Part shown: positions 8,065 through 33,836 of the stretch, piece by piece
Layout of the letters: each line of letters starts with the position of its first letter
Numbering within the stretch: the first letter of the stretch is position 1
The notes under the pieces: generated by a model
The model's input: only the letters and a program-made list of their open reading frames with translations
Told to the model about the DNA's origin: nothing
Database searches by the model: none
Source: a marine actinobacterium MedAcidi-G1
GTDB taxonomy: Bacteria; Actinomycetota; Acidimicrobiia; Acidimicrobiales; MedAcidi-G1
NCBI GenBank assembly: GCA_000817085.1
Contig: JUEM01000005.1
Location: 1 to 64,000, forward strand
Direction of reading: 5' to 3'
Length of the DNA stretch: 64,000 bases
Translations under genes and position numbers: made by a program

Positions 8065-8919
8065 ATGGGGGTAATTATCGCTAAGTCAGTTAATGAGGCA
8101 TGTGACGTATTGGCAGAAAATCCTGCGACAACAGTACTTGCAGGAGGAACTGACCTTATGGTGCAGGTAAATAGAGGTGCAAAGTCTCTGGAGAGTGTTT
8201 TAGACCTGAGTCGAATACTTGAACTAAAAAAATGGTCCATAGAAGGCAGCGAAATCGTTTTAGGAGCAGGTATTTCTTACACAGATTTAACGAATCCACA
8301 ATTAGCAAAACTTGTTCCGGCTTTAGCACAGGCTGCAAGAACCGTTGGTTCCCCACAAATACGAAACGCAGGAACCTTGGGAGGCAATTTAGCTACAGCG
8401 TCGCCTGCTGGGGATACAATTCCTGCGCTAGTAGCAATGGACGCATTTCTGAAATTAAAATCGTCAACAGAAACCCGAGAAGTTTCTATGACGGAATTTG
8501 TAACTGGTGTAAAAACAAATGTACTTAAACCGGGAGAAATTATTGAATCAGTAAGAATTCCTGTATTCGAGGGACCACAGGAATTCTTAAAAGTTGGCAC
8601 CCGAAACGCAATGGTTATTTCAGTCGTTTCTCTGGCATTAGTAAAAGACCATTTGGGGAGAAAATTAAGGGTGGGTGTTGGTTCTGTATCTCCAGTACCG
8701 TTCCGAGCAGCAGCAGCAGAAGAATTTATATCCCATGAATTTGATTGGGAAACCAACAGCGGCCCTTCAGAAAAAGTTATAAGTAAATTTTCTGAACTCG
8801 TCGCTGATTCGACAGAACCCATTGATGACCATCGCGGAACCGCTAATTATCGAAAACACGCGGTAAAAGTTTTAGCTAAAAGAGCTTTAGAAAGAGTTTG
8901 TGAGGGAGATGTAGCATGA
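8065..8919 (+). CDS. Molybdenum hydroxylase FAD-binding (M) subunit
   Basis: A 284-residue FAD subunit of the xanthine dehydrogenase/CO dehydrogenase family. Both pyrophosphate-binding motifs are intact: VLAGGTDLM (residues 24-32) and QIRNAGTLGGNLATASPAGD (99-118). It passes electrons from the iron-sulfur subunit to the final acceptor. It is first in a nine-gene + strand operon and overlaps the iron-sulfur gene by four bases. It is the only FAD subunit in this operon, so it might serve both the 763-residue and the 860-residue catalytic proteins encoded downstream. Confidence 0.93.
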   Translation: MGVIIAKSVNEACDVLAENPATTVLAGGTDLMVQVNRGAKSLESVLDLSRILELKKWSIEGSEIVLGAGISYTDLTNPQLAKLVPALAQAARTVGSPQIRNAGTLGGNLATASPAGDTIPALVAMDAFLKLKSSTETREVSMTEFVTGVKTNVLKPGEIIESVRIPVFEGPQEFLKVGTRNAMVISVVSLALVKDHLGRKLRVGVGSVSPVPFRAAAAEEFISHEFDWETNSGPSEKVISKFSELVADSTEPIDDHRGTANYRKHAVKVLAKRALERVCEGDVA

Positions 8920-9416
8920 TTTCTGAAACCTACACACTTGTAGTAAATGGAAGTAGTTATCAAGTTGTTGATGGTCACCCATCCGAAAGTCTTCTATGGG
9001 TTTTACGAGAAAGGCTCGAACTTTCTGGATCAAAAAATGCCTGTGAGGAAGGAGAGTGCGGATCTTGCACAGTCCTTGTTGACGAAGAAATCGTTTGCAG
9101 TTGTTTAGTTCTTGCAGCTTCTGCTGTGGGTCGTGAAATCACCACAATCGAAGGACTTGGGTCAGATGGTGAAATTTCAGATGTTCAGAAAGCTTTTGTC
9201 GAAGCGGGAGCGGTTCAGTGTGGGTTCTGCACACCAGGGTTATTAGTTGCAATAGATCAACTATTGAATACGGATCCTGATCCAGACGATTTGACAGTTA
9301 AGGAAGCAATTAGTGGAAATCTTTGTAGATGTACCGGTTATGGAAGAATCCTCGAAGCTGTTCGGATAGCAAGTAAAGACCGAAAAGCTCAAAATGAAGA
9401 GGAAATAAACAAATGA
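8916..9416 (+). CDS. Molybdenum hydroxylase [2Fe-2S] subunit
   Basis: A 166-residue small subunit carrying two [2Fe-2S] clusters. The plant-ferredoxin-type cluster has C43, C48, C51 and C63; the second, CO-dehydrogenase-type domain has C102, C105 (QCGFCTPG) and C137, C139 (LCRCTGYG). It relays electrons from the molybdenum site to the FAD subunit. It overlaps the genes on both sides by four bases, giving the order FAD, FeS, Moco. Confidence 0.95.
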   Translation: MISETYTLVVNGSSYQVVDGHPSESLLWVLRERLELSGSKNACEEGECGSCTVLVDEEIVCSCLVLAASAVGREITTIEGLGSDGEISDVQKAFVEAGAVQCGFCTPGLLVAIDQLLNTDPDPDDLTVKEAISGNLCRCTGYGRILEAVRIASKDRKAQNEEEINK

Positions 9417-17547: not shown

Positions 17548-17575
17548 AGTTTAGATTTAAGAAATAGGAGAGAAA

Positions 17576-18577: not shown

Positions 18578-19872
18578 ATAACCGTCTGGTTCTAAGGGGA
18601 TTACGATATCCCGGTGATATAGCTATAGAAAATGGTGTCATAACTGAAGTTGGCTTAATTGAGCCGCAAGACAATGATGAAGTGTTTACTTGCACTGGAG
18701 ATATAGCTACTCCAGGTTTGATAAATACTCACCACCACTTATATCAATGGATGACACGTGGGCGCGCAGTTGGTTGCAACTTGTTTGATTGGTTGGTGCA
18801 TCTGTACCCTGTCTGGGGCAAACTGTCGGTCGATGATGTGCATGCTGCTGCGCTAGTCGGTTTAGGTGAATTAGCCTCAACAGGTTGTACAACAGCATTT
18901 GACCATCACTACTTGGTGCCAAATGGTGATGACTCAGTATTCGATGCGATAGTCGATGCAGCTGAACAAGTCGGAATTAGATTGCATCTATCACGAGGCT
19001 CTATGGATCTTGGAGAGAGCCAAGGGGGGCTGCCCCCGGATCATGTTGTGGAAGACCGAGAAGCAATCCTTTCATCTACAGAATCAATAATTTCAAGGCA
19101 TCATGACGGGGAAATGGTTCACGTTGTTGTGGCCCCGTGCAGTCCTTTTTCAGTGACCACGGAATTGATGATTGATTCTGCGGAGCTTGCTAGAAAACAC
19201 GGTGTCCGTCTTCATACTCACCTTTGCGAAACTTTAGAGGAGCAAGAGTACTGTCTTGAGAAGTTTGGGAGGCGGCCGGTCGAGATGTTGGACGAATGGG
19301 GTTGGGTTGATAATGATGTCTGGCTGGCACATGGTATCCACATCGATAAAGAAGAAATGCAGAGACTGGGAGGAGCAGGTACAGGTATTGCACATTGTCC
19401 ATCCTCGAATGCGCGTTTGGCAGCAGGAATGTGCCCGGTGACAGATCTTCTGGAAGCAGGTTGTCCGGTCGGACTTGGAGTAGACGGGGTGGCTTCGAAT
19501 GAGATAGGTGGTTTATTCCCAGAACTTAGACAAGCACTTTTTACCGCACGGCAAAGAGAAATGAGACCTGATGCTCTTATGCCAGAAGAAGTAGTCGAGA
19601 TGGCAACAATAGGTGGAGCACGCTGTTTGGGCTTAGAGGATTTAGGGAGTTTCACAAAAGGCCAAAAGGCAGATATTGCTATTTGGCCGGGAGGAGATCT
19701 AGGCGATATTCAGGATCCTCTCACGGGTCTTGTAATGGGACCGGACAGAAGAGTGAAACATCTTTTCGTCGGGGGAAACCAGGTGATAAATAATTCGGAG
19801 TTGAAAAAAGTTGATATGGGCATAGCTCATTTAGAATTAGCTCGACATGCAAAGAGACTCTTCGATAGTTGA
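18574..19872 (+). CDS. 8-Oxoguanine deaminase-type amidohydrolase
   Basis: A 432-residue amidohydrolase with the complete set of metal ligands: [29 protein letters not shown] and LGVDGVAS. The segments [13 protein letters not shown] and [11 protein letters not shown] are features I associate with characterised 8-oxoguanine deaminases (EC 3.5.4.32), which convert 8-oxoguanine to urate. Related s-triazine or guanine deaminases are the alternative. The ATG at 18574 overlaps the LLM stop (ATGA). It ends the + operon and converges with the VanX-like gene 20 bases away. Confidence 0.82.
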
Positions 19873-19892: not shown

Positions 19893-20603
19893 TCAGTTTC
19901 TAAAAGGGCTTACCACCCCGAATTTTGCCTTTTCTCCTGTTAAAGCACCCCAACGGCGTGTACCGAACTCAAAATGCCACCATTCTTCTTGAAAAACAAC
20001 AAAGTCATGTGCGTGCATCGTCCAATACAAAAAACGACGAAAATCTCTATCAAATCCCGGGGTTTTCTCTAAGAAATCTGCTCGCGCTGCAGGAGTAATA
20101 TCATCAAATCCTGATGCGGGTGCCAAAGGAACATTGTCAAAGGTGAAAGTCAGGTCAACTGCTCCACCAGTTAAATGAGGCGGTGGGGTAACAGGGTCAC
20201 TATTTGGTTCAGCGAATAATTCTTCCGGAACTTTCGGATCCTCGCAGGCGGCTTTAAAAAGTTCATTTTGTAGAGCCAGAGGCCTCCATGCATCAAAAAT
20301 AGCCAGTCCCCACCTTTCAGGGAGCTCTTCAGTGATGCAATAGAGTTTTTCAGCAACAGATTCCCGAAGCCAAGAGGTTTTGAAAGAGTTTTCCCAGCCT
20401 GCCTCCCAGTAGCAATTCAGCGTTTTTACATGAGGATGCTTTAATTCAATAAGAGGTTCGTCATCAAATATTTCTAAAGCAGACGCTTCAGGCTCCCACA
20501 ATTCAGGTATGGCTTCTGATTCAGGAATATCTATGTTGAGATTTTTAAAAAACTTTTGCACATCAGTGGTTAGAACAGGTTCTCCAATCTTCTGCACCCT
20601 CAA
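19893..20603 (-). CDS. VanX-like D-Ala-D-Ala dipeptidase (peptidase M15D)
   Basis: A 236-residue zinc peptidase of the VanX family. The zinc/catalytic motif PHLTGGAVDLTF (His and Asp seven residues apart) and the second motif EEWWHFEFG are intact, as is the WGLAIFDAWRPLALQ strand before them. Family members cleave D-Ala-D-Ala, but no van-type resistance genes are near and there is no signal peptide. It is the last gene of the minus-strand XdhD-like operon and overlaps the LLM gene (ATGA), so it may hydrolyse an amide bond in a catabolic intermediate or be a dipeptide scavenger. Confidence 0.85.
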   Translation of the reverse strand: MRVQKIGEPVLTTDVQKFFKNLNIDIPESEAIPELWEPEASALEIFDDEPLIELKHPHVKTLNCYWEAGWENSFKTSWLRESVAEKLYCITEELPERWGLAIFDAWRPLALQNELFKAACEDPKVPEELFAEPNSDPVTPPPHLTGGAVDLTFTFDNVPLAPASGFDDITPAARADFLEKTPGFDRDFRRFLYWTMHAHDFVVFQEEWWHFEFGTRRWGALTGEKAKFGVVSPFRN

Positions 20604-21565
20604 CCTCCAAGAACCTGGGCTGTTACTTCAAGTAAAGAAACTCCACTATCAGGTTCAAATACAGGAATCATGAATTCATTAAAACCATGCTGTTCGACAA
20701 GACGAGCAAGTTCGTCAGCGCATTCGCTTACGCTTCCAGAGATGACAAAAGGTAGAACCCAATCATCTGACACATATTCTGCAGCTGCTTCAAGGCTGTT
20801 AGCTAGAGCACTGCGTATATTCGAAACATCTTTTTCAGTGACACCCAACTCATCAAGCACTGTCTTAGGAGAGTCCACCAGACGGTATGTCATATGGGGT
20901 CTAACAATTTCAAGAGATTCATCGTCAGTGACGATCATTGTTGAATAACAAATTTTTGGATCGTTGTTTCCACGTTCAGCACCCATTTTTATATTTTCTA
21001 CATATTCACCGAGTAAAGGTTTGAAAATAAAATCTAACATCACCCCGTCAGCAACAGAGCCGCCAAGGTCAAGCATTTTAGGACCGCGCCCAGCTAACCA
21101 AATTTCAATATCAGATCTTCCATAATTTAATTGTGCTGATTTGAAAGAAAATCCTGGTGCTTCCAAATCAACTTTTTTACCCGCGAATAACTGTCGGCAG
21201 GCAGAAATTGTTTGACGAACAGTTTCGAGAGGCTTGTAACGCTCAATTCCAAGAGGGTCTAAAGTCAAACTTCCTCCCGCCCCTATTCCCAAAAAAGCAC
21301 GACCGTTAGACATTTCATCAAGAGAAGCTATAGCAGCAGCAGTCTGACCTGGATGACGGGTGTAAGAATTTGTAATACCGGGGCCAACAATTAAGTTTTC
21401 AGTGGCATGCAGAATAGCGGTCATGGTGACATAAACATCTCGAGTTGCTAACCCTTCGTCGTATACCCAACAACGTTCAAAACCCAATTGCTCAGATCTG
21501 ATAGCTAAATCACACATAGAATCAATTGAAGTTTCTGGGATGAGATTGATACTTCCTGGAATCAT
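20600..21565 (-). CDS. LLM-class flavin-dependent oxidoreductase (paralogue B1)
   Basis: A 321-residue luciferase-like protein. Family features include RCWVYDEGLATRDVYV, VGPGITNSYTRHPGQTAAAIA, GIGAGGSLTLDPLGIER and IWLAGRGPKML. It is a clear paralogue of the protein at 36793-37755, sharing RCWVYDEGL and the GIGAGG region, and belongs to a different LLM subgroup from those at 17576 and 30728. It lies between yqeC and the VanX-like gene. Substrate and cofactor (F420 or FMN) are unknown. Confidence 0.85.
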   Translation of the reverse strand: MIPGSINLIPETSIDSMCDLAIRSEQLGFERCWVYDEGLATRDVYVTMTAILHATENLIVGPGITNSYTRHPGQTAAAIASLDEMSNGRAFLGIGAGGSLTLDPLGIERYKPLETVRQTISACRQLFAGKKVDLEAPGFSFKSAQLNYGRSDIEIWLAGRGPKMLDLGGSVADGVMLDFIFKPLLGEYVENIKMGAERGNNDPKICYSTMIVTDDESLEIVRPHMTYRLVDSPKTVLDELGVTEKDVSNIRSALANSLEAAAEYVSDDWVLPFVISGSVSECADELARLVEQHGFNEFMIPVFEPDSGVSLLEVTAQVLGG

Positions 21566-21574
21566 CTAAGAAAC

Positions 21575-22312
21575 CTATCCTTCTTGATGACTTAGAACTA
21601 GAGAAATTTCAACTTCTGAGTCAAAACTCTGAAGCTCTTGAACTAAACGCTCAACAATGTTTTGGTTTCCAGGAGAAACCTTTGTAATCGCTATAACGAA
21701 ACGCATTCCATTTTTTAACCCTTTTCTAGATCCGTTCGAATCGAGTAAAAGAATGGCAGCCCTTTTAGGGGTGAGTCTTTCATAGGGAGAGCAATTAACG
21801 ACCGCCGCGACTCTTAGCGGTCTATGGCATTGGTCTTCGATAACTCTATCAATTGCATCAGCACCGATTACTGCAATAACAGTTGTTACACCTTGGGGTA
21901 AAACAGGTTCGTAAGGCGCAGGAGCCTTCGCTGGATGTCGTCTCGCTCCATCTGCTTCAACGATGACTCTGGTTGCTTCGGGTAACCAACCTTTGGGTAG
22001 CGAAGGATCAACTCCGAAAGCTTTTTCACCCTTGACGCGATCCCAGATCATAACGGGAGCATTTCCTCCTAAGGCATCGGCAAGCTCTTTTTCAGAAGGG
22101 CTAATGAGCAAATTTGCTTCTCCTGTTTGGTCACTCCCCATTTTGGTTGTAGTAGTTAGAATCGTTCCTCTACCGTGAAGTTCTCCTAGAGCCCTAAGAA
22201 GAGTTGATTTACCTCCGCCTCCAACCAGAGCGACTATCTCACCTTCTTTTATTTCTAGATTTTCGACAGCCTTGTGAACCTCTAAAGGTTCGATTTGTTT
22301 TTTTCTAACCAT
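21575..22312 (-). CDS. yqeC: YqeC-like molybdenum hydroxylase accessory ATPase
   Basis: A 245-residue protein matching YqeC, annotated in other bacteria as a putative accessory protein of selenium-dependent hydroxylases. It begins with a P-loop, IVALVGGGGKSTLLRALGE (residues 26-44), followed by TILTTTTKMG, then VIVEADGARRHPAKAPAPYEP and TTVIAVIGADAID, all family landmarks. It probably uses nucleotide hydrolysis in cofactor maturation or insertion. It overlaps yqeB by 31 bases. The family normally accompanies enzymes with a labile selenium or sulfur at the molybdenum; that link is knowledge of the family, not shown here. Confidence 0.85.
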   Translation of the reverse strand: MVRKKQIEPLEVHKAVENLEIKEGEIVALVGGGGKSTLLRALGELHGRGTILTTTTKMGSDQTGEANLLISPSEKELADALGGNAPVMIWDRVKGEKAFGVDPSLPKGWLPEATRVIVEADGARRHPAKAPAPYEPVLPQGVTTVIAVIGADAIDRVIEDQCHRPLRVAAVVNCSPYERLTPKRAAILLLDSNGSRKGLKNGMRFVIAITKVSPGNQNIVERLVQELQSFDSEVEISLVLSHQEG

Positions 22313-23085
22313 TTAGTTACAGCTTCCATTACGCCATTTCCAACTGCTAGAGCCTTGTCAGAAACTTTGTCTACATCAACGCTTGCACCTCTCGGGTCTA
22401 TATCCCCAATCTTCATGCCGGCTTCTAGCGGCACGCCTTCATTTATCATTCCACGAATTAGTCCGCTAGTTCCGGCAACTATCGAACTATCTCCCACAGA
22501 GCCAATTACTTCACCTTTTTTGACCAGATCACCTATGTCCTTCACCCAGTGAATTTCTCCATCAGAAGGAGAACGCAATAGGCGTTCACTTGTAAGCCCC
22601 CCAACTTCACCAGGAATTCCTGTGTCTTTATGTGCATAACCATCCCAAATCACTTTCCCCAAATTGGGTCCGCGCATGGTCTCGACAACAGCATGACAGT
22701 CCTTACCGGCAAAAAACCCGGGTCCAAGAGCAACAACTAAGTCGGCATCATCAATTTTTGTATCCATAGGTTTTTTCTGCATTCTGGCATCGACAATCAC
22801 AGAAATTGGGAAAGGTGGGAGAGATTCGCTGATTAGAACTGGAACAACGTTAGTAGATGCAAAGTCATCAATATTTGAGAGTTCATCAATTTTTTCGCCT
22901 ACTATTTCCTCAATTTCTATTTTTTTGTCGAGAATCGCTGATGAAAGTGAAACTTTTCTTCTTACCGCCAAAGGATTTTCCAAATCAAATACGACCACGG
23001 GCATTCCTCTTCTTTTTAGTTGAAGAGCAACACCGGTTCCCAGGTCTCCGCCTCCACGTATTAAACAGAGATGTTCAGAAATCAC
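22282..23085 (-). CDS. yqeB: YqeB-like molybdenum cofactor maturation protein
   Basis: A 267-residue protein of the YqeB/EF2563 family, annotated as selenium-dependent molybdenum cofactor biosynthesis protein. Landmarks are the glycine-rich start CLIRGGGDLGTGVALQLKRRG, the conserved NPLAVRRKVS, a central VVALGPGFFAGKDCHAVVET and IWDGYAHKDTGIPG. It lies between xdhC and yqeC, in the order known from other loci. The exact reaction is not established; with XdhC it presumably modifies or hands over the sulfurated (or selenated) cofactor to a molybdenum hydroxylase encoded nearby. Confidence 0.87.
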   Translation of the reverse strand: MISEHLCLIRGGGDLGTGVALQLKRRGMPVVVFDLENPLAVRRKVSLSSAILDKKIEIEEIVGEKIDELSNIDDFASTNVVPVLISESLPPFPISVIVDARMQKKPMDTKIDDADLVVALGPGFFAGKDCHAVVETMRGPNLGKVIWDGYAHKDTGIPGEVGGLTSERLLRSPSDGEIHWVKDIGDLVKKGEVIGSVGDSSIVAGTSGLIRGMINEGVPLEAGMKIGDIDPRGASVDVDKVSDKALAVGNGVMEAVTKWLEKNKSNL

Positions 23086-23087
23086 AG

Positions 23088-23891
23088 CTAATTATTACTA
23101 GAATTATCTTTTTCGATGATTTGAGACATGATAGAAATAGCTATTTCTTGAGGGGTCTCAGCATTCAAGTCTAAACCTATGGGTGAAGTGACTCTAGAGA
23201 AATCTTGTTCCGAAATGCCAGATGATGACAGTGCAGATCTAGTTGTTTCCCATCGCCTAGAACTTCCCATTACTCCAATTGATTTTGTATCAGTAGAAAG
23301 CAGATGAGGAAGGTTTTGGATGTCCAATTCAGCATTGCGTGTAACAGCTACTACATGATCTCGTTCCGTTAAATTGATCTGCTCTAGAGCATCTTCAATT
23401 GAGCCGGCGATAACAAGATCTGCTCCAGTTACGTTTTCAGTTAGCTCTTCTCGATCGTCTGTTGCAACGACATAGTAGCCCAACCAGCTAGCAAGCTCGG
23501 CTACGGCTCTTCCGACATGACCGCACCCGATAATCAGAATTTTAGAATTGGGCATATAGGTCTCCAAATGAATAGTAACCGTTCCACCACAAACACCTGG
23601 ATCTCCAGCCACTGGATCAACTAGTTCATAGTTCAGCAGAAGTGAGGTGCCGTCGTCCATGCAGGCACAGGCTTCTTTTATTACCCGTGCTTCCATCTCT
23701 CCACCACCTATAGTTCCAATTTGTTCAGAGTCAGAAAGTATCAACATTTTTGCCCCAGAATGCCGTGGTACGGATCGGGAAGTTTCCACAACTGTTGCTA
23801 AAACGACAGTATTTCCTTCATCAATGAGATTATTAAGTTTGGTCAGTATCCGAGTCTCGTCGACACCCTTACTGAGATTTTTTTTACCCAT
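23088..23891 (-). CDS. xdhC: XdhC-family cofactor insertion protein
   Basis: A 267-residue XdhC/CoxI-family protein. It shows the N-terminal XdhC domain (TVVLATVVETSRSVPRHSGAKM, then GTIGGGEMEARVIKEA) and the C-terminal Rossmann domain (KILIIGCGHVGRAVAELASWLG). XdhC binds molybdenum cofactor, protects it during sulfuration and inserts it into the hydroxylase. The ATG at 23891, overlapping the previous stop by eight bases (ATGGGTAA), is preferred over an upstream in-frame start inside the amidohydrolase gene. One XdhC may serve all three molybdenum hydroxylases of the window. Confidence 0.9.
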   Translation of the reverse strand: MGKKNLSKGVDETRILTKLNNLIDEGNTVVLATVVETSRSVPRHSGAKMLILSDSEQIGTIGGGEMEARVIKEACACMDDGTSLLLNYELVDPVAGDPGVCGGTVTIHLETYMPNSKILIIGCGHVGRAVAELASWLGYYVVATDDREELTENVTGADLVIAGSIEDALEQINLTERDHVVAVTRNAELDIQNLPHLLSTDTKSIGVMGSSRRWETTRSALSSSGISEQDFSRVTSPIGLDLNAETPQEIAISIMSQIIEKDNSSNN

Positions 23892-25215
23892 TTTCACCCC
23901 AGAGGCGCCTAGCTTGCCGATGAACAGATTCTCTTTGATTTTCAAGATCAGCCCCAAGAATCTCGCCATTTTTTAATTTCCATTTTCCTGCAATCATTAC
24001 AGAGTCGACATGATGACCAGAGCGATAAAGAATCACTTGCTCAATTAGGTTTTCTTCAGTCGAGGGAGTTGGAAAGTTTGCATCAATTAATTGGAGGTCA
24101 GCCACGAAACCTGGTTTCAAAGCACCAACATTATCTAGGCCTAGGGCTTCCGCTCCTTGAAGAGTTGCCATTTCAAAAACTTGTTCAGCTTTCATCGTCC
24201 CAGGATCTTGAAGACGTGCTTTGTGGATGAGAAAAGCTCCTCGCATTACGTCAAACATGTCATTCATGTATCCGTCGCTTCCCAGAGAGACACGGACGCC
24301 TTTTTCGAGCAGTTCGGGAATAGGAGCTATCCCACCTCCAACCTCACAGTTAGATAAAGGCATATGAACACAACGTGTTCCAGCAGATGAAACTAATTCA
24401 ATCTCTCTTTCAGATAGATGAACACACTGAGAAGCCAGAAATCGCGGACCATTTATCCCAAGTTTTTCGTAATGTTCGAATGTTCGGTGTCCAAAAGTTT
24501 TTTCACACCATTCGCCCTCATAGGCACCTTCATTGCAGTGAGCATGAAAGAGAACGTTATTTTCTTCAGCCAGCTCGAATGCATGTCGAAGAAAGTTATC
24601 GGAGCAAGTGAATGTTGTATGGACACTCATAAATCCAGACACAAGATTCCCTTCAACGTTTGTTTCAATCAAACGGATATTTTCATCAATTCCTTTTTGA
24701 GCAACTTTTGAACCGGATCTTTCACTTGCTTCAAAACTGAGCAAAGCTCTAAGTCCGCGTTTTTCTACGATTTCCTTTTCGAGTAAGAGAGAGTCGGGAA
24801 GTGACTGGGGTGCTTCTAAGATGTCGCAAAATGTCGTTGTTCCACTTAAAAGCATTTCACTGCATAACCATTCGGTCGCAGCAGAAATCATTTTATGATC
24901 AATTTTGTCTTCGACTAAAGGCCACCAAAACTTTTCTAGAAAAGACCAAAAATCTGATGGAGCAGATTTTACTGGTATGCCATGTGCCAGAACCCCATAC
25001 ATATGGATATGCCCATTAACGAAACCGGGCATGAGTACCTTGTCTTTAGCTAAAAAGATTTCGTCTTCTGAAAACTTGGTTTCCAGTTCTTCGTTTGGTG
25101 CAACAGATTGAATTTTGCCGTCGTATACACGCACACCCCAATTTTGTTTGGGCTCATTTGAAGATTCAGAAATCAACCAAGCGGGTTGAATAATGAGACC
25201 GCCCTTTGAGGGCAT
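23884..25215 (-). CDS. Amidohydrolase-superfamily deaminase/hydrolase
   Basis: A 443-residue member of the Atz/Trz/SsnA-like amidohydrolases with a full-length fold. Metal and catalytic motifs are NGHIHMYGVLAHG, FHAHCNEG, ASQCVHLSERE and LGSDGYMNDM. The insert DFWSFLEKFWWPLVED is like SsnA, and its length equals that of SsnA. It sits directly after the XdhD-like gene, where ssnA sits near xdhD in enterobacteria. A cyclic amidine or imide hydrolase or deaminase is likely; the substrate is unknown. It is not closely similar to the short SsnA-like protein at 16495. Confidence 0.85.
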   Translation of the reverse strand: MPSKGGLIIQPAWLISESSNEPKQNWGVRVYDGKIQSVAPNEELETKFSEDEIFLAKDKVLMPGFVNGHIHMYGVLAHGIPVKSAPSDFWSFLEKFWWPLVEDKIDHKMISAATEWLCSEMLLSGTTTFCDILEAPQSLPDSLLLEKEIVEKRGLRALLSFEASERSGSKVAQKGIDENIRLIETNVEGNLVSGFMSVHTTFTCSDNFLRHAFELAEENNVLFHAHCNEGAYEGEWCEKTFGHRTFEHYEKLGINGPRFLASQCVHLSEREIELVSSAGTRCVHMPLSNCEVGGGIAPIPELLEKGVRVSLGSDGYMNDMFDVMRGAFLIHKARLQDPGTMKAEQVFEMATLQGAEALGLDNVGALKPGFVADLQLIDANFPTPSTEENLIEQVILYRSGHHVDSVMIAGKWKLKNGEILGADLENQRESVHRQARRLWGENG

Positions 25216-25217
25216 TT

Positions 25218-28139
25218 CTAGTTTCCTTTAAGCGCTCGATGAACGCGTTCAGGTGTAAAAGGAAGTTCGTCTATTCGGACTCCAGTAGCGTTGAGAATCG
25301 CATTTCTTACGGCAGGTGCCACACCATCTTTAGGTATCTCTGCAACCGCTTTCGCTCCGAAAGGCCCACTGTCCTCCATTGTCTGAACTAAAAACACTTC
25401 AGTTTTAGGCATTTCGTCCGCTCTGTAAATTCGATAAGGTCCGAATGAAGGATTTACCATTGCCCCTTTATCATCAAGAACAATTTCCTCACAATGTGCA
25501 TAACCCAAGGCTTGAAGCATTCCACCTTCTACTTGACCACTTGCGGTCACGGGATTAATAGCCACACCACAGTCCACTGCCATGACCATTTTTATTATTT
25601 CAATCTGACCAGTTTCAATATCGATTTCGATCTCAACAAATTGTGCAGCAAAAGGAGGAGGACAATCAGGCGACACATGCGAACCAGTTCCCATAATTTG
25701 TTCTTGTTCATTCAAATGCAAAGAATCCAGAGCAATTTCTTCAAGACTTACTGAACGACCATCAGGCGCCCAGGCCCGCCTGTCACGCAATTCAATAGAA
25801 CAGGGGATTTCTATATCAAGCAACATAGCTGCACGTTCTTTTAGTCTGGTACGCACAACATCTGCAGCTTTTTTAGCAGCGGTGCCAGAAATGTAGGTTG
25901 TACTTGAAGCGTAAGCACCCGTATCAAAAGGAGTAACATCAGTGTCAGAAGAGTAAACCCTTATATCTTCTAAAGGCACTCCTAGAACTTCTGCGGCTAT
26001 CTGACCAAGAACAGTGTCTGCTCCAGTGCCTAAGTCCGTAGCACCCACAAGCATATTGAATGAGCCATCATCATTTAGTTTTATGCTGCATCCCCCCATA
26101 TCCAGAAAAGGAATAGATGTTCCATGCATGCAAAACGCAAATCCAAGCCCTCTCCTGATATGTGTTCTATCAACGGGATTTTTCCAAGACTCATCATGCC
26201 TGCGATGCCAACCAATCGCACGACTTCCTTGAGCGACACACTCTTCGATTCCGTTAGACATAACTTTCGGATATTCATCGAGTTCTTCTTCTGTTGTTCC
26301 TTGTTCACCCAAGTGCGGAGCAATGTTCATTTCATCTCCGACCTTCACCCAATTCTGTCTCCGGAATTCAATAGGATCCATTCCCAAATCAAGTGCAATA
26401 TCTTCCATATGAGCTTCTAAACCGAAGAGAGCTTGAGGTGCTCCGTATCCTCTATACGCTCCTGGCACAGGAATGTTTGTGTACATGACATCACAATCGA
26501 AACGTTTGTTATCACAGTTGTAAGAGGAAAGACCTCTAAGGCCAGCGACTGTCTGCACGGTGTAACCATGAGTTCCGTAAGGTCCTGTATTGCCAACTAG
26601 TTTTAGTTCTTGAGCAACAAGATTCCCTTCCGAATCAACGCCTGTTCTGTAAGTAAGTGTTTGCGGGTGTCGAGTTCTGCTTGCATAAAATTCTTCCGCT
26701 CTGGTCAACTCGAGTTGGACTGGTTGCCTAGTGGCTATAGCTAAGTGGGCGACAATATCTTCGATAAGCATTTCTTGTTTAGCGCCAAAGCCACCGCCAA
26801 TTCGCGGTTTGATAATTCTGACATCTTTAATATCCATTCCAACTAAAGGTGCAAGCATGCGACGTGTGTGAAATGGCACTTGTGTGGCGGTTCTAACGAC
26901 CAGACGTTCATCGCTATCGAGCCAAGCTGTAGAAATATGAGGCTCTATAGGCGCCGGTTGAACTTGATGAACTCGAAAAGTCTGTTCATACGTCCGATCA
27001 GCATTTTGTAGAGCGGAATCTACGTCACCTCTTTCAGCAAATATTTGATGAACCAGATTTCGGTCTCTGTCGGCAATGTCTACAGTGTCAACTTCATCAT
27101 GAATCACCGGAGCATCGGGATTTCCAGCGTCCAATTCATCAAAGACTGCTGGTAAAACTTCGTACTCGACCTTTATTAGAGCGCAAGCTTCTTCAGCTAT
27201 TTGTGGGGTTTCAGCCGCTACTGCAGCCACACGATCACCTACATGTCTAACCTTGTTATCAAAACTAACTTGGTCGTGAGGCTTAGGATTCGGATAAGAC
27301 TGACCTCCTGAAGCATATTTAATTCGATTAATGTTCTCGTGGTGTATGACGGCGTGAACCCCTGGAATTGCGAGTGCTTCAGAATCATCTATTGAGGTGA
27401 TTCTCGCATGAGCGTGTGGGCTCCTAAGAACCTTTGCATGAAGTAAACCTCGAATGTCAAAATCGGCGGTAAACGCTGGGTTTCCTTTCACCAATCGAAC
27501 TGCATCTACCTTGACTTCTGGTTGCCCTACCACTGAAGTTGAGGGAACTTCTGAAGAAGGAATCAACCTTGGGATGGCATCTGAAGCCTCAGGAGGGGAA
27601 TCGTCTGGATCTACTTCGACAGCGTTGACTCCATCAGTCATAGGTTTGAGTATCAAAGGTCTAAATGGTTCTGGTTCCTCTCCACGAAGAACCGCTGCAG
27701 CTTGCTTAACTGCTGCTACAGGTTTTACATATGCAGTTTCTCGATCAAGAATCCCTGAAAGCATGTCGCGTATTTCAATTTCACTTGGATCGGGGGTTTC
27801 TTTCAATAATTGAAGAGTGCCAAGAATCATTGCTCCCACTGAGTAGCCCGATTGCATAGCACCAGTTGCTGCAAAAGCTGCCTGAACAGGGTGGAGGGAA
27901 GAGTCTGTATTTAGAGATTCAAGTGTTACCACTGAATGCCCGTTTGCTTGGGCTGCAAGGATTACTTCGCTACTTGCGAGCAGATCGTCGAAAAGAACAG
28001 CTGAAGCTCCGGTTTCCCCAGTTGAAGAACCGAAGCGAACGCTTGACATGCCTTCACGTCTAAGAACCATCAATAAGGTTTCGTGAGCCTCACATTCGAT
28101 TGCCGTCTCTTGACCGTTAAGTTCAATATTAATCTGCAT
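25218..28139 (-). CDS. xdhD: XdhD-like molybdenum hydroxylase with degenerate iron-sulfur domain
   Basis: A 973-residue fused hydroxylase. The Moco part looks functional: hammerhead from about residue 210, loop GGGFGAKQEM and a C-terminal GPFGAKAVAEIP that keeps the glutamate. The N-terminal 140 residues still align with a [2Fe-2S] subunit but every cluster ligand is changed: the first motif reads FGSSTGETGAS (S38, T43, S46), the fourth ligand is aliphatic near residue 60, QCGFC has become Q-SGYS (S97, S100) and LCRC has become LDRE (D132, E134). Only one cysteine, C16, remains there. E. coli XdhD (956 residues, from memory) is similarly altered. Electrons therefore must leave by another route, or a partner supplies the clusters. 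Confidence 0.88.
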   Translation of the reverse strand: MQINIELNGQETAIECEAHETLLMVLRREGMSSVRFGSSTGETGASAVLFDDLLASSEVILAAQANGHSVVTLESLNTDSSLHPVQAAFAATGAMQSGYSVGAMILGTLQLLKETPDPSEIEIRDMLSGILDRETAYVKPVAAVKQAAAVLRGEEPEPFRPLILKPMTDGVNAVEVDPDDSPPEASDAIPRLIPSSEVPSTSVVGQPEVKVDAVRLVKGNPAFTADFDIRGLLHAKVLRSPHAHARITSIDDSEALAIPGVHAVIHHENINRIKYASGGQSYPNPKPHDQVSFDNKVRHVGDRVAAVAAETPQIAEEACALIKVEYEVLPAVFDELDAGNPDAPVIHDEVDTVDIADRDRNLVHQIFAERGDVDSALQNADRTYEQTFRVHQVQPAPIEPHISTAWLDSDERLVVRTATQVPFHTRRMLAPLVGMDIKDVRIIKPRIGGGFGAKQEMLIEDIVAHLAIATRQPVQLELTRAEEFYASRTRHPQTLTYRTGVDSEGNLVAQELKLVGNTGPYGTHGYTVQTVAGLRGLSSYNCDNKRFDCDVMYTNIPVPGAYRGYGAPQALFGLEAHMEDIALDLGMDPIEFRRQNWVKVGDEMNIAPHLGEQGTTEEELDEYPKVMSNGIEECVAQGSRAIGWHRRHDESWKNPVDRTHIRRGLGFAFCMHGTSIPFLDMGGCSIKLNDDGSFNMLVGATDLGTGADTVLGQIAAEVLGVPLEDIRVYSSDTDVTPFDTGAYASSTTYISGTAAKKAADVVRTRLKERAAMLLDIEIPCSIELRDRRAWAPDGRSVSLEEIALDSLHLNEQEQIMGTGSHVSPDCPPPFAAQFVEIEIDIETGQIEIIKMVMAVDCGVAINPVTASGQVEGGMLQALGYAHCEEIVLDDKGAMVNPSFGPYRIYRADEMPKTEVFLVQTMEDSGPFGAKAVAEIPKDGVAPAVRNAILNATGVRIDELPFTPERVHRALKGN

Positions 28140-28882
28140 TATTTCTCACCGTTCAGTAAATCAAGAGCCCGTGAAGCAAGAATTTTCACTAGATGTATTC
28201 TGTATTCCGAATCTCCGCGGAAATCACTAGGAGGTTGCAATGAAACTGTCGGATTCTCTGGGTCCACAAGAACTGGAGTTGGAGCAACTCCAGTAACAGC
28301 CATTCGGTCACCATCAGAGCAACGTCTTGCAGCAACCGAAACAATAGGCGTATCAGCCGGAGTTCTTCCAGTTGCTTCTAGTAGGGACTTTCCATCGGTT
28401 GCTATATCAATAGATATAATTAATTCTGACTCTAGACCTTCTGGTTTAATTAGAACTTCTTGAAGAGGAACACTTAATTCCCCATCAGAAGAGTTGAGAA
28501 TCGTGACTTCAGCATCGTGAACTAAGAGACTTGCTATCAGTTGGCTATCAGAATCACCGCTAGCGATCGTTCCTCCAATAGTTGCCAGAGTTCTCAAAGT
28601 GCTAGGTAATTCAGAACGTGAAGAAAGTCGAATTAAATCAGGACAATCGGAATTTTTCATTATTTCGTGAAGTGTTGTCATGGAACCTATTTTCAATTTC
28701 CCATTCGAGCTAGCAATTCCTTTCAAAGCGAGACTTTGAAGATCTACTAGATGAAGAGGTTCCGTATCTTCATTAGTATTTAATTGAGTCCCACCTGCTA
28801 GCGGAACGTGTTTGTCTTGGGAAATAAGACTTAGTGCTTCTTCAAGATTTTCAGGTCTCTGATATGAAATTATTTTTGTCAT
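28139..28882 (-). CDS. YgfM-like FAD-binding subunit, diverged
   Basis: A 247-residue protein with the fold of the molybdenum hydroxylase FAD subunit. The first flavin motif reads VPLAGGTQLN where typical subunits have AGGTDL, and the second reads LATIGGTIASGDSDSQL where they have TLGGN and SPxxD. These changes resemble YgfM, the partner of XdhD in E. coli (AGGSKLN, TIGGEIA, from memory). FAD binding may be weakened or altered. I chose the ATG at 28882; a TTG at 28891 is in frame. It is the first gene of the eight-gene minus operon and abuts the XdhD-like gene. Confidence 0.82.
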   Translation of the reverse strand: MTKIISYQRPENLEEALSLISQDKHVPLAGGTQLNTNEDTEPLHLVDLQSLALKGIASSNGKLKIGSMTTLHEIMKNSDCPDLIRLSSRSELPSTLRTLATIGGTIASGDSDSQLIASLLVHDAEVTILNSSDGELSVPLQEVLIKPEGLESELIISIDIATDGKSLLEATGRTPADTPIVSVAARRCSDGDRMAVTGVAPTPVLVDPENPTVSLQPPSDFRGDSEYRIHLVKILASRALDLLNGEK

Positions 28883-28968
28883 TAAATCCAATTCTGATTC
28901 TCAGATATACATGTTACTCCAAGAAGAAATTATCAGGAACTTAAAGATTCTCAACGTCAGAAGACCTA

Positions 28969-29363: not shown

Positions 29364-30728
29364 TTAAAGAAGTCGAGAGGGGATATTAGCTTTCTGGAAG
29401 ACCTTTTCTGCACATTTGGTTGCTCTGGCTATAGCTTTTTTCTCATTAGTGAAAGTAATATCCCTGTCTTTAATTAAAAATTTTCCGTCAACCATCACGT
29501 GAGTAACATCTCTGGGGGTAGCGCAATAAACTATTGCAGACGCCACTTTATGTACTGGTGCAGAGAAAGCAGTCATTAAGTCAATGACTATTAGGTCTGC
29601 TTTTTTGCCGATCTCCAGCGATCCTATTTCTTTTTCTTTACCTACTAAGCGAGCACCATGCCGACAAGCCAAATGAAGCACTTCTTCTGGTTGTAAGACA
29701 CTTGCATCTAATCGATCAACTTTTTGTAGTAAAACAGTTGCTTTGCACGTTTCGAACATATCCTGTCGATTGTTACTTCCTGGTCCATCAGTTGCTAAAG
29801 CAACAGTGATGCCACGATCGAGCATTTCTTTAATTTTTGCTACTCCGGAAGCCAGATACATATTTGACACTGGACAATGAACAACTGAAGCTCCACGTTT
29901 CGATATCAAATCAATTTCATCTTCGTCTAGCCAAATGGAATGTGCAAGTTGAATGTCAGGACCCAAAAGTCCTAATGATTCAAGCCAATGAACATGTCTG
30001 AGGCCACGCTCTTCAATATTCATTTCCACTTCAATTGCTGTTTCGGCACAGTGAAGATGTGTTGAACCACCCCATGACCTTGTTGCAGTGACAGTCTCAG
30101 TCATTGCACTGTCTGAACAGCCCCATGGGATCAAAGGTGCTAAACCTACTTGAATTCGATTATTCTCGGCACCATGCCATTTTTCATGCACGGATCTTAT
30201 GCGACTTACAACTTCTTTAGCTGACTCCGTTAGGGGTGGGTGGTAATTTCGGTCTGCCCATCCACTCGCCAATATAAATCTCAGTCCGGCTTCAGATGCG
30301 GCCTGACAAACAGCATGATCTATTTGTGGATCCACATGAATATATTGATGGTCGACAACGGTAGTAGCGCCGCCTCTGAGGTTTTCTATTAACCCCAATG
30401 TCGCAGCTGCCTTTGCAGATTCTGCATCAAGCTCCGAAGCGCCTGGCCAGATGCATTCTTTGAGCCAATCAAGAAGAGGTTTATCATCGGCCAGTCCTCG
30501 GAAAAAAGTTTGGAAAAGGTGTGTGTGTCCATTTACCATCCCTGGCATCACCGCTGAGCCAGGAGTTTCAATTATTTCATCCGCTTCCTTGCGGATATTT
30601 CTAGGCGCTTCACCTTTGCCGATATTCTCGATCACGTCATTTTTTGTAAAAATCCAACCTGGATCTAAAACAGAGTTTGAGTCATCAACGGTTACTATCG
30701 CTGGGCCCTCTAAGAGTATCGAATGCAT
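29364..30728 (-). CDS. Amidohydrolase-family deaminase (AtzB/TrzN or 8-oxoguanine-deaminase-like)
   Basis: A 454-residue metal-dependent amidohydrolase. Motifs are NGHTHLFQTFFRG, STHLHCAE, LAHSIWLDEDE and LATDGPGSNN, with DWLKECIWPGASE between the first and second as in chlorohydrolase and guanine-deaminase relatives. It is encoded immediately after a paralogue-A LLM gene (stop and start overlap by one base), exactly as the 8-oxoguanine deaminase gene follows the LLM gene at 17576. A purine- or triazine-like amino-group substrate is therefore likely but not proven. Confidence 0.83.
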   Translation of the reverse strand: MHSILLEGPAIVTVDDSNSVLDPGWIFTKNDVIENIGKGEAPRNIRKEADEIIETPGSAVMPGMVNGHTHLFQTFFRGLADDKPLLDWLKECIWPGASELDAESAKAAATLGLIENLRGGATTVVDHQYIHVDPQIDHAVCQAASEAGLRFILASGWADRNYHPPLTESAKEVVSRIRSVHEKWHGAENNRIQVGLAPLIPWGCSDSAMTETVTATRSWGGSTHLHCAETAIEVEMNIEERGLRHVHWLESLGLLGPDIQLAHSIWLDEDEIDLISKRGASVVHCPVSNMYLASGVAKIKEMLDRGITVALATDGPGSNNRQDMFETCKATVLLQKVDRLDASVLQPEEVLHLACRHGARLVGKEKEIGSLEIGKKADLIVIDLMTAFSAPVHKVASAIVYCATPRDVTHVMVDGKFLIKDRDITFTNEKKAIARATKCAEKVFQKANIPSRLL

Positions 30729-31753
30729 TACATAGACCAGTTAGCGAAAGCATCAATAACTGGAACCATGTCATCCATAAGTGGATAAAGAATAGGGCAA
30801 GTTACGCCGGCATCTACATATTCTTCAACGGTTTCACGGCATTGTTTGCTTGTGCCCGCAGCCATAAGAGACTTGACAAGATCGTCTGGAATCAGATCAG
30901 CAGCTTTACGGTAGTCAGCTTCCGTAGCTGGCCAACCAACCACTTCTTTGACTCGCTCAATTAGATCAGGATCGGCACCACTAGCCTTCATTATGTGGGG
31001 CTCGGTCCCAAGGTAGTATGCGATAAGTGATTTCCCTGTACGGATAGCCTCGTTTGGATCTTCATCGGAAAGGGAACAAACCAACAGTTCAGGTCTATCA
31101 ATTTGCTCTAAGCTCTTTCCAGATTTTTGAGCCCCATTCGAAATCAGTTTTACAGCTTCACGGATGTATTGTGGTGTCACGATGTAGTTAAGAACTACGC
31201 CATCACAGATTTCACCAGCCAGTTCGAGCATTTTTGGACCAGTTGCACCGAGGTAAATAGGGATAGATCTGGCTTCTATGTTGCCATATGCCACGTCCAG
31301 TTTAATTCTGTCTAGATTTACAAATTCACCCGAGTAGCTGACTTCTTCCATGGTGAAGAGTTCTCGAATCGCTTCAATATTTTCTCTCATTGCTTTAAGA
31401 GGTTTTTTTCTTTCTTCACCCACTCTGGAAGTAATAGGTTCCCACCAAGCACCGAGTCCTAGCATTACCCGACTTTGATTAGTTTCATCGAGACCAGCTA
31501 GTTCCCACATGGTGCTCCAGGTAGCAGCTATTACTGCAGGGTTACGAGTCCAAATAGGTAAAACTCCTGAACCGATACGAACGTTCTTTGTTGCAGTTAA
31601 AAGAGCGCTCATCATGACTACACAATCACGCGCTAAACGTGTGTCTGCTTGCCAGATTTCTTTTATTCCGCGTTCCTCTGCATATTTGGCCATTTCTAGC
31701 TCATATGCGATTTCGTGTTTATCTTGAAAATAAAGAGCGATTCTAGAGTTCAT
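30728..31753 (-). CDS. LLM-class F420/flavin-dependent oxidoreductase (paralogue A2)
   Basis: A 341-residue luciferase-like oxidoreductase, full length and closely related to the one at 17576. Shared blocks include [53 protein letters not shown] and TCPILYPL. It is divergent from the RidA gene with 40 bases between starts, and both starts carry their own TANNNT box. LLM with RidA recalls rutA/rutC of pyrimidine degradation, in which an LLM monooxygenase opens uracil; this one is not RutA itself, since it is of the F420-reductase-like subgroup. Confidence 0.86.
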
Positions 31754-31760
31754 TTTGGCG

Positions 31761-31766
31761 ACGTTA
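31761..31766 (-). promoter_or_regulatory. -10 box TAACGT for the leaderless LLM gene
   Basis: On the minus strand TAACGT is followed by seven bases and the ATG at 31753. There is no Shine-Dalgarno. It lies back to back with the RidA -10 box in a 40-base divergent region. Confidence 0.45.
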
Positions 31767-31780
31767 TCGTCTCAGCGTAG

Positions 31781-31786
31781 TAGCGT
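31781..31786 (+). promoter_or_regulatory. -10 box TAGCGT for the leaderless RidA gene
   Basis: TAGCGT is followed by seven bases and the GTG at 31794. No Shine-Dalgarno is present. The box also supports choosing GTG 31794 over an earlier in-frame TTG at 31755. Confidence 0.45.
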
Positions 31787-31793
31787 CGTTATT

Positions 31794-32186
31794 GTGCCCT
31801 TAGTTCCTATTAATCCAAATGAAATAGCTCCTCCTTCTGCCAGATACGAACACGCAGTAATGGCTGAAAATTCTTCACGTATTTTGCACACCTCAGGAAT
31901 TGTCCCCGTGAAATCAGACGGAACTGTTCCAGATGGTATTCGTCAACAAGCAGAAGTAATTTGGCTAAATATAAGGTCAATTCTTAAAGAAGCTTCTATG
32001 GATATTAATGACATAGCGCTGGTGACTACATATGTAGTGCCAGATCAGGATTTGTCTACGGTGATGTCCGTCCGTGACGAAACTTTTGGTTCTCATCAAT
32101 CTGCATCAACTCTTCTAGTTGTATCGCAGCTCGCTCAAAAGTCTTGGAAAATGGAAGTTTCTGTCGTAGCGATCTCAGATTTTTAG
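31794..32186 (+). CDS. RidA-family (YjgF/YER057c/UK114) protein
   Basis: A 130-residue RidA-like protein. It has the family layout: HAVMAENSSRILHTSGIVPV at the start, the middle helix IRSILKEASMDINDIALVTTYV, and the end segment STLLVVSQLAQKSWKMEVSVVAI. The conserved arginine of true RidA deaminases (R-V-E at the C-terminal strand) is replaced, since the strand here reads KMEVSVVA, so it may not hydrolyse imines by the standard mechanism. In the Rut pathway a RidA homologue (RutC) follows an LLM oxygenase. The GTG start at 31794 removes an unlikely N-terminal extension that would overlap the divergent promoter. Confidence 0.82.
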   Translation: MPLVPINPNEIAPPSARYEHAVMAENSSRILHTSGIVPVKSDGTVPDGIRQQAEVIWLNIRSILKEASMDINDIALVTTYVVPDQDLSTVMSVRDETFGSHQSASTLLVVSQLAQKSWKMEVSVVAISDF

Positions 32187-32226
32187 AATTTTAAGCATTT
32201 CTCGAAGGTCTTCTAAAGCAAATTTA

Positions 32227-33075
32227 TCAACTAGCAGAGTTCGCTTCATGCCATCTGCCTACAGCTTTATCTTGAAGTACTCCAAATATCCAGAAAACCA
32301 ATACTCCAAGAGCAGAAGACAAAATTACACACGCTAGGAGTTCTTCACCGTTAAGCCTATTTGCATGTTTTTTAAGCATTTGGCCAATTCCGGCTTCACC
32401 TTTTCCAAAAAAGAAATCACCAACGACTGCTCCAATTACTGATAAACCTGCAGATATTCGTAGACCTGCAAAAATAGCCGGTAGCGCAGCTGGGAACATC
32501 AATTTTCTAAGACGCGTAAATCTGTTTGCGTGGTGGAGGGAAAAAAGATCGTGCATCCCTCTTTCCGCGGATTGTAGGCCAAACAGGGTATTTACGATGA
32601 TTGGAAAAAGAGCGATAATTACACAAACAACAACCCGAGACCTCTGACCCGTACCGAACCAGAATGAGATCAACGGAACGATCGCCAAAATAGGAATAGC
32701 TTGGAGGGTTACCATGTAAGGAAAAATTGCTCGTTCAAGAAACTTTGCTTGACTCATAAGTATTGCAAGAATAAAACCAAGGCTTATAGCTATCGATAAA
32801 CCGATTAATGCTACTTCTGTGCTTGACCAAAGCGCTTTAAGAGACTCAGTTCGGTTGTCGCCGTCGAGAAAGCCAACATCAATAACGCTGTGAATGGGCC
32901 TAAGGAGAAAGCGTCGCTTTTCCTCTAAAAGTCCAAATGAGATGTAGTACCAAAGCCCGATTACACCTGCTCCTAATATTAACGGGGGTAAAAATGATGA
33001 AGTATATTTTCGTATTCGAGAAGGTTGAGACATGACAGCTGCAGAAGATTCTTCTTTTTTTATGCTTATGTTCAT
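32227..33075 (-). CDS. ABC transporter permease (SsuC/TauC type)
   Basis: A 282-residue inner-membrane permease with about six hydrophobic segments and the cytoplasmic coupling motif around LPAALPAIFAGLRISAGLSV, as in nitrate/sulfonate/taurine and thiamine-precursor transporters. The ATG at 33075 overlaps the ATPase stop (ATGA); an upstream in-frame start lies inside the ATPase gene. No substrate-binding protein is encoded next to it, which such importers need, so the substrate is unknown. A pyrimidine, ureide or sulfonate are candidates by context. Confidence 0.88.
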   Translation of the reverse strand: MNISIKKEESSAAVMSQPSRIRKYTSSFLPPLILGAGVIGLWYYISFGLLEEKRRFLLRPIHSVIDVGFLDGDNRTESLKALWSSTEVALIGLSIAISLGFILAILMSQAKFLERAIFPYMVTLQAIPILAIVPLISFWFGTGQRSRVVVCVIIALFPIIVNTLFGLQSAERGMHDLFSLHHANRFTRLRKLMFPAALPAIFAGLRISAGLSVIGAVVGDFFFGKGEAGIGQMLKKHANRLNGEELLACVILSSALGVLVFWIFGVLQDKAVGRWHEANSAS

Positions 33076-33836
33076 GAGTGCGATCCTCTTAACTCGACTG
33101 AAACTTTTCCACACATCTCAGCGAATTCTGCATCAAATCTGAGATCTGGATTCCTTGGGTATTCGAAAGGAATATCAAATTCAGCCACTAAACGCCCAGG
33201 TCTTGCTGACATTACTAACACTTTGGTTGACATGAAAACAGCCTCACTAATTGAGTGAGTGATAAACAAGCCAGCGAAACCTTCTTGTTTGAAAAGTTGT
33301 TGAGTTTCTTCGTTCAAATGTTCGCGTGTGATTTCGTCTACCGCTCCAAAAGGTTCATCAAAAAGAAAAACAGGAGGTTTGAGAGTTAGAGAACGAGCAA
33401 GTGAGCATCTCATTTTCATACCACCTGAAAGAGATTTTGGATAATGGTTCTCGAATCCCTCAAGTCCAACTAGCTCTATTGACTCTTGAACTAGTTTCTT
33501 GCGTTCTTGTTGACTTGTCCCATGAAGTTCTGCCAAAAGTTCAACGTTCTTACTAACTGTTCTCCAAGGAAGCAAGGTGGCGTCCTGAAAAACGTAACCG
33601 AGTCTCTCACGATCGACTTCCACAGTTCCACTAGTGGGTTCAAGAAGACCCGAGGCAATTTTCAATAAAGTCGACTTTCCGCAACCTGAAGGTCCGACGA
33701 TTGTTACAAACTCACCTCTACTGAGGTCAAAAGAGATGTTTTGTAGAGCCTCTGTACCATCAGGGAAAATCATTCCTATGTCGTCAAACGACAAAGATGT
33801 AGAAGTGCTTAAATCTGTATTCAACTTTTGCTCCAC
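33072..33836 (-). CDS. ABC transporter ATPase (SsuB/TauB type)
   Basis: A 254-residue ATPase with Walker A GPSGCGKSTLL, Q-loop YVFQDATLLPW, signature LSGGMKMRCSLARSL, Walker B VFLFDEPFGAVD and the H-loop FITHSISEAV. GAVDEITREHLNEE is typical of the nitrate/sulfonate/taurine import group. It energises the permease encoded four bases on. The start is GTG at 33836 with a weak AGGA upstream. Confidence 0.92.
   Translation of the reverse strand: MEQKLNTDLSTSTSLSFDDIGMIFPDGTEALQNISFDLSRGEFVTIVGPSGCGKSTLLKIASGLLEPTSGTVEVDRERLGYVFQDATLLPWRTVSKNVELLAELHGTSQQERKKLVQESIELVGLEGFENHYPKSLSGGMKMRCSLARSLTLKPPVFLFDEPFGAVDEITREHLNEETQQLFKQEGFAGLFITHSISEAVFMSTKVLVMSARPGRLVAEFDIPFEYPRNPDLRFDAEFAEMCGKVSVELRGSHS

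Follow-up and report, generated by a model that had tools for sequence, protein, structure and literature searches.

Can an enzyme of the xanthine oxidase family still work when every ligand of its iron-sulfur clusters has been replaced? This question is raised by one gene in the 64,000-nucleotide stretch of DNA from the marine actinobacterium MedAcidi-G1 that was analyzed here and that we refer to as the window. A chain of molybdenum, iron-sulfur and flavin is given as the defining wiring of the family (PMC8615798, PMC3958847), and reviews treat a pair of [2Fe-2S] clusters as a general feature of its members and list XdhD as uncharacterized (PMC3958847). A paper on selenium names the gene and passes no comment (PMC2276186), and the papers on the reductive uric acid pathway, in their accessible sections, model XdhD-YgfM on the xanthine dehydrogenase of R. 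capsulatus and do not mention missing ligands. A search of the open-access literature found no report of missing ligands in XdhD or in the family.

The initial annotation had placed the open reading frame correctly at 25218..28139, and it is read on the minus strand from 28139 to 25218. It starts with ATG, contains no internal stops and encodes a protein of 973 aa in which a ghost Fe-S domain is fused to a molybdenum domain, as judged from Pfam, homologs in relatives and an AlphaFold2 model. Residues 1-150 (27690..28139, minus strand) form a two-part [2Fe-2S] domain that is recognized by Pfam Fer2_2 (E 3.5e-15), one of four Fer2_2 matches in the genome, and its N-terminus gave no Pfam match to Fer2. 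The ligand positions were read against the intact Fe-S sequences of E. coli XdhC and of two proteins of the window, the [2Fe-2S] small subunit of a separate xanthine dehydrogenase (8916..9416, plus strand) and a fused xanthine dehydrogenase nearest to the selenium-dependent XDH model TIGR03311 (13920..16502, plus strand), both of which keep 8/8 cysteines, as had been claimed. In the XdhD-like protein the distal, FAD-side site of plant-ferredoxin type (27966..28028, minus strand) has S38, T43, S46 and E58 in place of cysteine. The proximal, pterin-side site has QSGYS, with S97 and S100, where QCGxC is expected (27840..27851, minus strand) and D132-R133-E134 where C-R-C is expected (27738..27746, minus strand). 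None of the eight ligands is a cysteine, in agreement with the initial annotation except at ligand 4, which is E58 and not an aliphatic residue near position 60. The alignment of the first 150 residues that had been proposed as a check shows the cysteines to be absent from the ligand positions rather than displaced: the only cysteine is C16, off the ligand positions, which rules out a displaced yet clustered set.

The frame is clean and the loss is not an artifact. The same eight-residue replacement string is found in six further full-length proteins of the same genus, and the loss extends to more than 70 other wire-less homologs; in the fully wire-less homologs, the first 160 residues contain on average fewer than one cysteine. 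Repetition of the string in many genomes, together with low dN/dS, rules out a sequencing error or frameshift. The dN/dS of the N-terminal domain is 0.01-0.15 in wire-less members, much like the 0.11-0.18 of intact ones. The AlphaFold2 model has a mean pLDDT of 90.7 and a pTM of 0.92, with a pLDDT of about 87-96 in the N-terminal domain, and its best structural match is Desulfovibrio gigas aldehyde oxidoreductase (1sij; TM 0.83/0.89). Because this match extends over the whole length, the model places the ghost domain as usual. The D. gigas enzyme likewise has its Fe-S domain fused to the molybdenum domain; it differs in possessing both [2Fe-2S] clusters and in lacking an FAD subunit. The ghost N-terminal domain is thus folded and kept by purifying selection.

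The molybdenum site has been retained, as the initial annotation recognized from the intact Moco loop and C-terminal glutamate motif. The molybdenum domain (25227..27530, minus strand; Pfam and motif survey) contains the GGGFGAKQ loop, RGYG with R563, and the C-terminal glutamate E934, and it matches MoCoBD_1 (4e-74), MoCoBD_2 (6e-72) and Ald_Xan_dh_C (4e-28). GGGFGxKQ, RGYG and the C-terminal glutamate are invariant across all ligand classes of the family. By its molybdenum domains and catalytic motifs the protein belongs to the xanthine oxidase family; it lacks the eight cysteines on which the two [2Fe-2S] clusters of the family should sit (0/8), and it has the FAD subunit, encoded next to it as an FAD_binding_5 protein with both FAD loops. 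Among PDB sequences, the molybdenum domain is best matched by 4-hydroxybenzoyl-CoA reductase (1rm6), a dehydroxylase of the same family. In that enzyme both clusters are on a separate Fe-S subunit, and a 4Fe-4S cluster is present in addition. The E. coli residue Glu606 was considered as a substrate marker and discarded as not diagnostic, since its equivalent, E612, is present in every family member and in the 13920 protein of the window.

The loss is not confined to one gene. A genome scan yielded 80 named loci, to which Anaerolineae genomes were added, 161/298 of them encoding a homolog; the full-length set comprised 208 homologs, mostly from Chloroflexota and Acidimicrobiia. (A search with E. 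coli XdhD as query within the class of genome G067 gave no match and was uninformative.) Both clusters' ligands are kept in 70 homologs, only the distal ligands are lost in 46, only the proximal in 8, and both sets in 84. At the distal site, 130 homologs have no cysteine and 78 have four, with none having one to three; at the proximal site there are four, one or none, a single cysteine being retained by 14 of the 84 double-loss homologs. Cysteines disappear as whole clusters, since the distal set is never partly lost. The string GCCCCCCC, seen at four loci, proved to be an alignment slip (GGC), and these loci were counted as intact. One group with loss of the proximal ligands only (L114, L120, L212, L216, L217, L221, L223, L234) keeps the distal ligands CCCC and has SDSE, SESE or SDAE at the proximal site, an arrangement that would leave the distal cluster cut off from molybdenum. 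Some Anaerolineae homologs (L063, L064, L073, L110) lie beside protein kinase, TPR, FHA/zinc-ribbon or NACHT genes and not beside catabolic ones.

A tree of 44 representatives, built from the molybdenum domain alone, requires about six changes of the distal ligands and about five of the proximal ligands, counts that are forced by well-supported branches. Joining L090 and L198 in a single distal event is not rejected (AU p 0.06), which puts the distal count at five to six; a larger, quick tree that includes E. coli XdhD gives eight changes for each cluster. A single ancestral loss is rejected (p 1.5e-5 for distal, 5e-47 for proximal). The [2Fe-2S] clusters have been lost at least five times independently among these relatives. 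E. coli XdhD also has 0/8 ligand cysteines, in line with the similar loss that the initial annotation had ascribed to it; the losses are independent, however, and not the trait of one subfamily. Uniting E. coli XdhD with the clade of the window protein is rejected (AU p = 0.001), and joining it to the whole wider family is not (p 0.18). It groups with Bacillota proteins that have intact separate small subunits, on a long branch and with its exact place unsure. Its nearest sampled relatives in the tree are XdhA-type molybdenum subunits (L126-L141), which differ from it in that all 16 loci keep a separately encoded 8-Cys small subunit; C. sporogenes XdhAC, putatively related to these loci, reduces uric acid (PMC12990295). 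The window family and E. coli XdhD lost their clusters separately. In the strict sense the window protein is not an XdhD, its TIGR03313 score of 644.8 lying below the cut-off of 1101.9 (E. coli XdhD scores 2122.8). The observation on one odd gene is confirmed, and it widens into a pattern across one enzyme family, in which the Fe-S wire has been taken apart repeatedly and one cluster at a time.

The residues that replaced the cysteines are themselves convergent. Ligand 8 is glutamate or aspartate in 90/92 proximal-loss sequences (glutamate in 87), and this is so in five of six lineages (the window clade, the L064 group, the L114 group, L090 and E. coli XdhD), alanine being found only in L110. 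Ligand 5 is serine in 87/92 and ligand 7 is aspartate in 68/92, and among the distal losses D-S/T-D/A-G/D patterns recur across unrelated lineages. The scaffold neighbors G44, Q96, G98 and R133 are conserved with or without a cluster, the last three invariantly. Structures of the D. gigas and bovine enzymes show a hydrogen bond between the pterin amino group and the final cysteine of the proximal cluster, a bond that a carboxylate at ligand 8 could supply instead. R133 and E134 align with human Arg149 and Cys150, and the Arg149Cys and Cys150Phe variants of human xanthine oxidoreductase have been linked to xanthinuria (PMC8615798).

The gene is part of a minus-strand operon. Its start is overlapped by the gene for a short, YgfM-like FAD-binding subunit of 250 aa (28139..28891), assigned by Pfam and retaining the loops LAGGTQLN and ATIGGTIA. 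It is followed by genes for an SsnA-like amidohydrolase (23884..25215; profile match, 27% to E. coli SsnA), an XdhC-type molybdenum cofactor chaperone (23088..23969; profile match), YqeB, for selenium-dependent molybdenum cofactor maturation (22282..23085; TIGR03309, 294.4 bits against a cut-off of 220), the selenium cofactor protein YqeC (21575..22312; TIGR03172, 144.6 bits against a cut-off of 73) and, at the operon end, an LLM-class (F420-type) oxidoreductase (20600..21565; profile match). Related Acidimicrobiia contain the same block, in many cases with a second pair of LLM and amidohydrolase genes. In the window a pair of this kind, followed by ABC transporter genes, lies at 29364-33836 and is kept beside the XdhD-like operon in several Acidimicrobiia. 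A SelD is encoded elsewhere in the genome (372 bits, one in-frame TGA), so that yqeB, yqeC and selD, the genes for a selenium-dependent hydroxylase, are all present. Because SelD is present, a selenium-dependent cofactor for the XdhD-like protein is plausible from gene content. The in-frame TGA of this SelD (L263, G000:C38:27490-28413) suggests a selenocysteine-containing SelD and Sec decoding in this marine Acidimicrobiales MAG.

Judging from the neighboring genes, the substrate is probably a purine-like N-heterocycle. Outside the genus of the window, clade members lie beside YgeW, YgeY and HyuA (L048) or YgeW and YqeA (L053), all genes of the reductive uric acid pathway. Of the genes of this pathway, the window contains the SsnA-like and LLM genes; HyuA, YgeW and YgfK had no match within the window, and YgeX had none in the 84%-complete genome. 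The closest relative of E. coli SsnA in the window adjoins the intact 13920 enzyme on the plus strand. The plus-strand set at 13920-19872 encodes this fused XDH, an SsnA-like protein, an LLM oxidoreductase and an 8-oxoguanine deaminase; it is a stronger candidate for the reported SsnA and F420 pathway than the minus-strand operon is. At 8065-12953 the genes of a complete xanthine dehydrogenase of PucCED type are followed by one for an M20 peptidase-family hydrolase, and the window as a whole is a dense region of purine or N-heterocycle catabolism.

Both FAD loops are conserved in the window clade across large divergence, and clade members with no adjacent FAD gene, including the STADSSCE members, have one elsewhere with intact loops. 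The idea that FAD had been lost from wire-less Anaerolineae copies with no adjacent FAD gene was set aside after a whole-genome search, which located likely cognate FAD genes elsewhere. L064-L070 have lost the second FAD loop along with the clusters, and so has the L090 genome, in its FAD gene. There is also a mirror case (L191, L196, L200, L204, L211, L235, L237, L249), in which the eight Fe-S cysteines are intact and the adjacent FAD subunit has lost its FAD loops, as though the flavin had been given up in place of the clusters. Parts of the electron chain, Fe-S and FAD alike, have thus been lost in several combinations across the family.

The reading that we prefer, with a probability of roughly one half, is that the XdhD-like protein is a working molybdenum hydroxylase or dehydroxylase of flavin-plus-molybdenum type with a cluster-free ghost Fe-S domain. 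In its favor are the conservation of FAD and the reported activity of E. coli XdhD-YgfM, which, according to the accessible part of the source, reduces uric acid to 2,8-dioxopurine with NADH (PMC12507026); iron content does not appear in that part of the report of the assay. Like the window pair, the E. coli pair combines a fused ghost domain (0/8 cysteines) with a short FAD subunit, and it is accompanied by an SsnA-type amidohydrolase and the chaperones YqeB and YqeC; the two fused proteins are 35% identical over their full length. As a precedent it is weakened by belonging to a separate lineage with a separate loss and by having Gln where the XdhD-like protein has Arg563. The window pair scores below the TIGR03313 and TIGR03312 cut-offs, and YgfK and HyuA are unmatched in the window and YgeX in its genome. 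The initial annotation's statement that the enzyme oxidizes a ring is not established, since the sole characterized analog runs reductively. In the preferred flavin-plus-molybdenum scheme, the ghost domain would still dock at its normal place and anchor the pterin, with E134 taking on the hydrogen bond normally given by the last cluster cysteine. FAD and the molybdenum cofactor would be the sole cofactors of the complex, as is expected for E. coli XdhD-YgfM, and the product of the probable purine-like N-heterocycle may be passed to the neighboring amidohydrolase and LLM reductase. Once the clusters are left out, a wide gap separates FAD from the molybdenum centre in the structures of xanthine oxidase. 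Direct transfer between them would therefore be slow, and electrons would have to pass from FAD to pterin by slow tunnelling or through an altered geometry. The lost FAD loops in L064-L070 and the L090 genome also count against this reading, being unexplained by a flavin-driven mechanism.

Those two lineages, with neither cluster ligands nor an intact flavin-binding loop, make another mode of action possible, although we consider it less likely than the flavin route for the window protein: the enzyme would be redox-closed, its molybdenum reduced by one substrate and reoxidized by a second one or by the first molecule after it has turned round, as in a transhydroxylase or isomerase. Xanthine might, for example, be converted to 2,8-dioxopurine through urate, with any FAD surviving as a relic or serving as a regulator. 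Pyrogallol-phloroglucinol transhydroxylase and acetylene hydratase, molybdenum or tungsten enzymes that need no net external electrons, offer a working analogy from the DMSO reductase family, which has an unrelated fold; we know of no redox-closed reaction in the xanthine oxidase family. Such a mode would be consistent with the repeated loss of whole clusters and never of the molybdenum site, and with the varied losses of Fe-S and FAD, including intact Fe-S beside degenerate FAD (L191, L200, L204, L235 and others). More speculatively, a whole group of xanthine oxidase family enzymes might be cut off from outside electrons, with molybdenum cycled by two substrates or by one twice, as transhydroxylases or isomerases of purine-like rings; Fe-S and in some cases FAD would then have been dispensable and hence repeatedly lost. 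Against the redox-closed mode, the FAD loops stay conserved across the divergent window clade, and the assay of E. coli XdhD contained NADH, although an NADH-free control is not named in the accessible methods text (PMC12507026).

It is less probable still that another protein, such as a ferredoxin, a borrowed Fe-S subunit or an unknown partner, feeds electrons directly into the molybdenum or the pterin. An intact small subunit is encoded nearby, and relatives with intact Fe-S and degenerate FAD loops suggest that non-FAD donors exist in the family. The initial annotation had proposed that clusters could be borrowed from the 8916 subunit, but this gene lies between those of its own FAD (8065) and molybdenum (9413) partners, the ghost domain fills the docking place in a confident model, and the gene neighborhoods of wire-less members show no conserved Fe-S gene. 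Its further suggestion, an LLM flavoprotein as electron acceptor, is not supported either: the LLM genes more probably encode F420-type reductases that act separately in the pathway, a role proposed for Chloroflexota SsnA clusters (PMC12507026).

A pocket that holds another metal, or an all-oxygen-ligated cluster, by way of the Ser, Thr, Asp and Glu replacements is improbable: these residues are oxygen donors and recur at ligands 5, 7 and 8, but the distal replacements include Ala and Gly in many members, and the carboxylates could merely replace the charge of the cluster. To our knowledge neither has a precedent. Least credible is a decaying or non-enzymatic relative retained for structure or regulation, since the kinase, TPR or FHA neighbors of several Anaerolineae copies, which would suit it, are outweighed by the molybdenum-site motifs invariant in all classes, the strong purifying selection and the conserved Acidimicrobiia operon with its cofactor chaperones.

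The automatic annotation of ghost-domain proteins as Fe-S binding is probably wrong. The graded series of homologs, with eight cysteines, distal ligands lost, proximal ligands lost or both lost, represents a natural experiment on the role of each cluster. The repeated losses raise the question of how, or whether at all, a flavin drives an unwired molybdenum site. E. coli XdhD, one of the proteins concerned, is reported to be active and has relevance for the breakdown of uric acid in the gut. Enzymes of the xanthine dehydrogenase type can apparently dispense with the electron wire of the textbooks; the clusters have disappeared about six times in nature, and selection has continued to maintain the enzyme.
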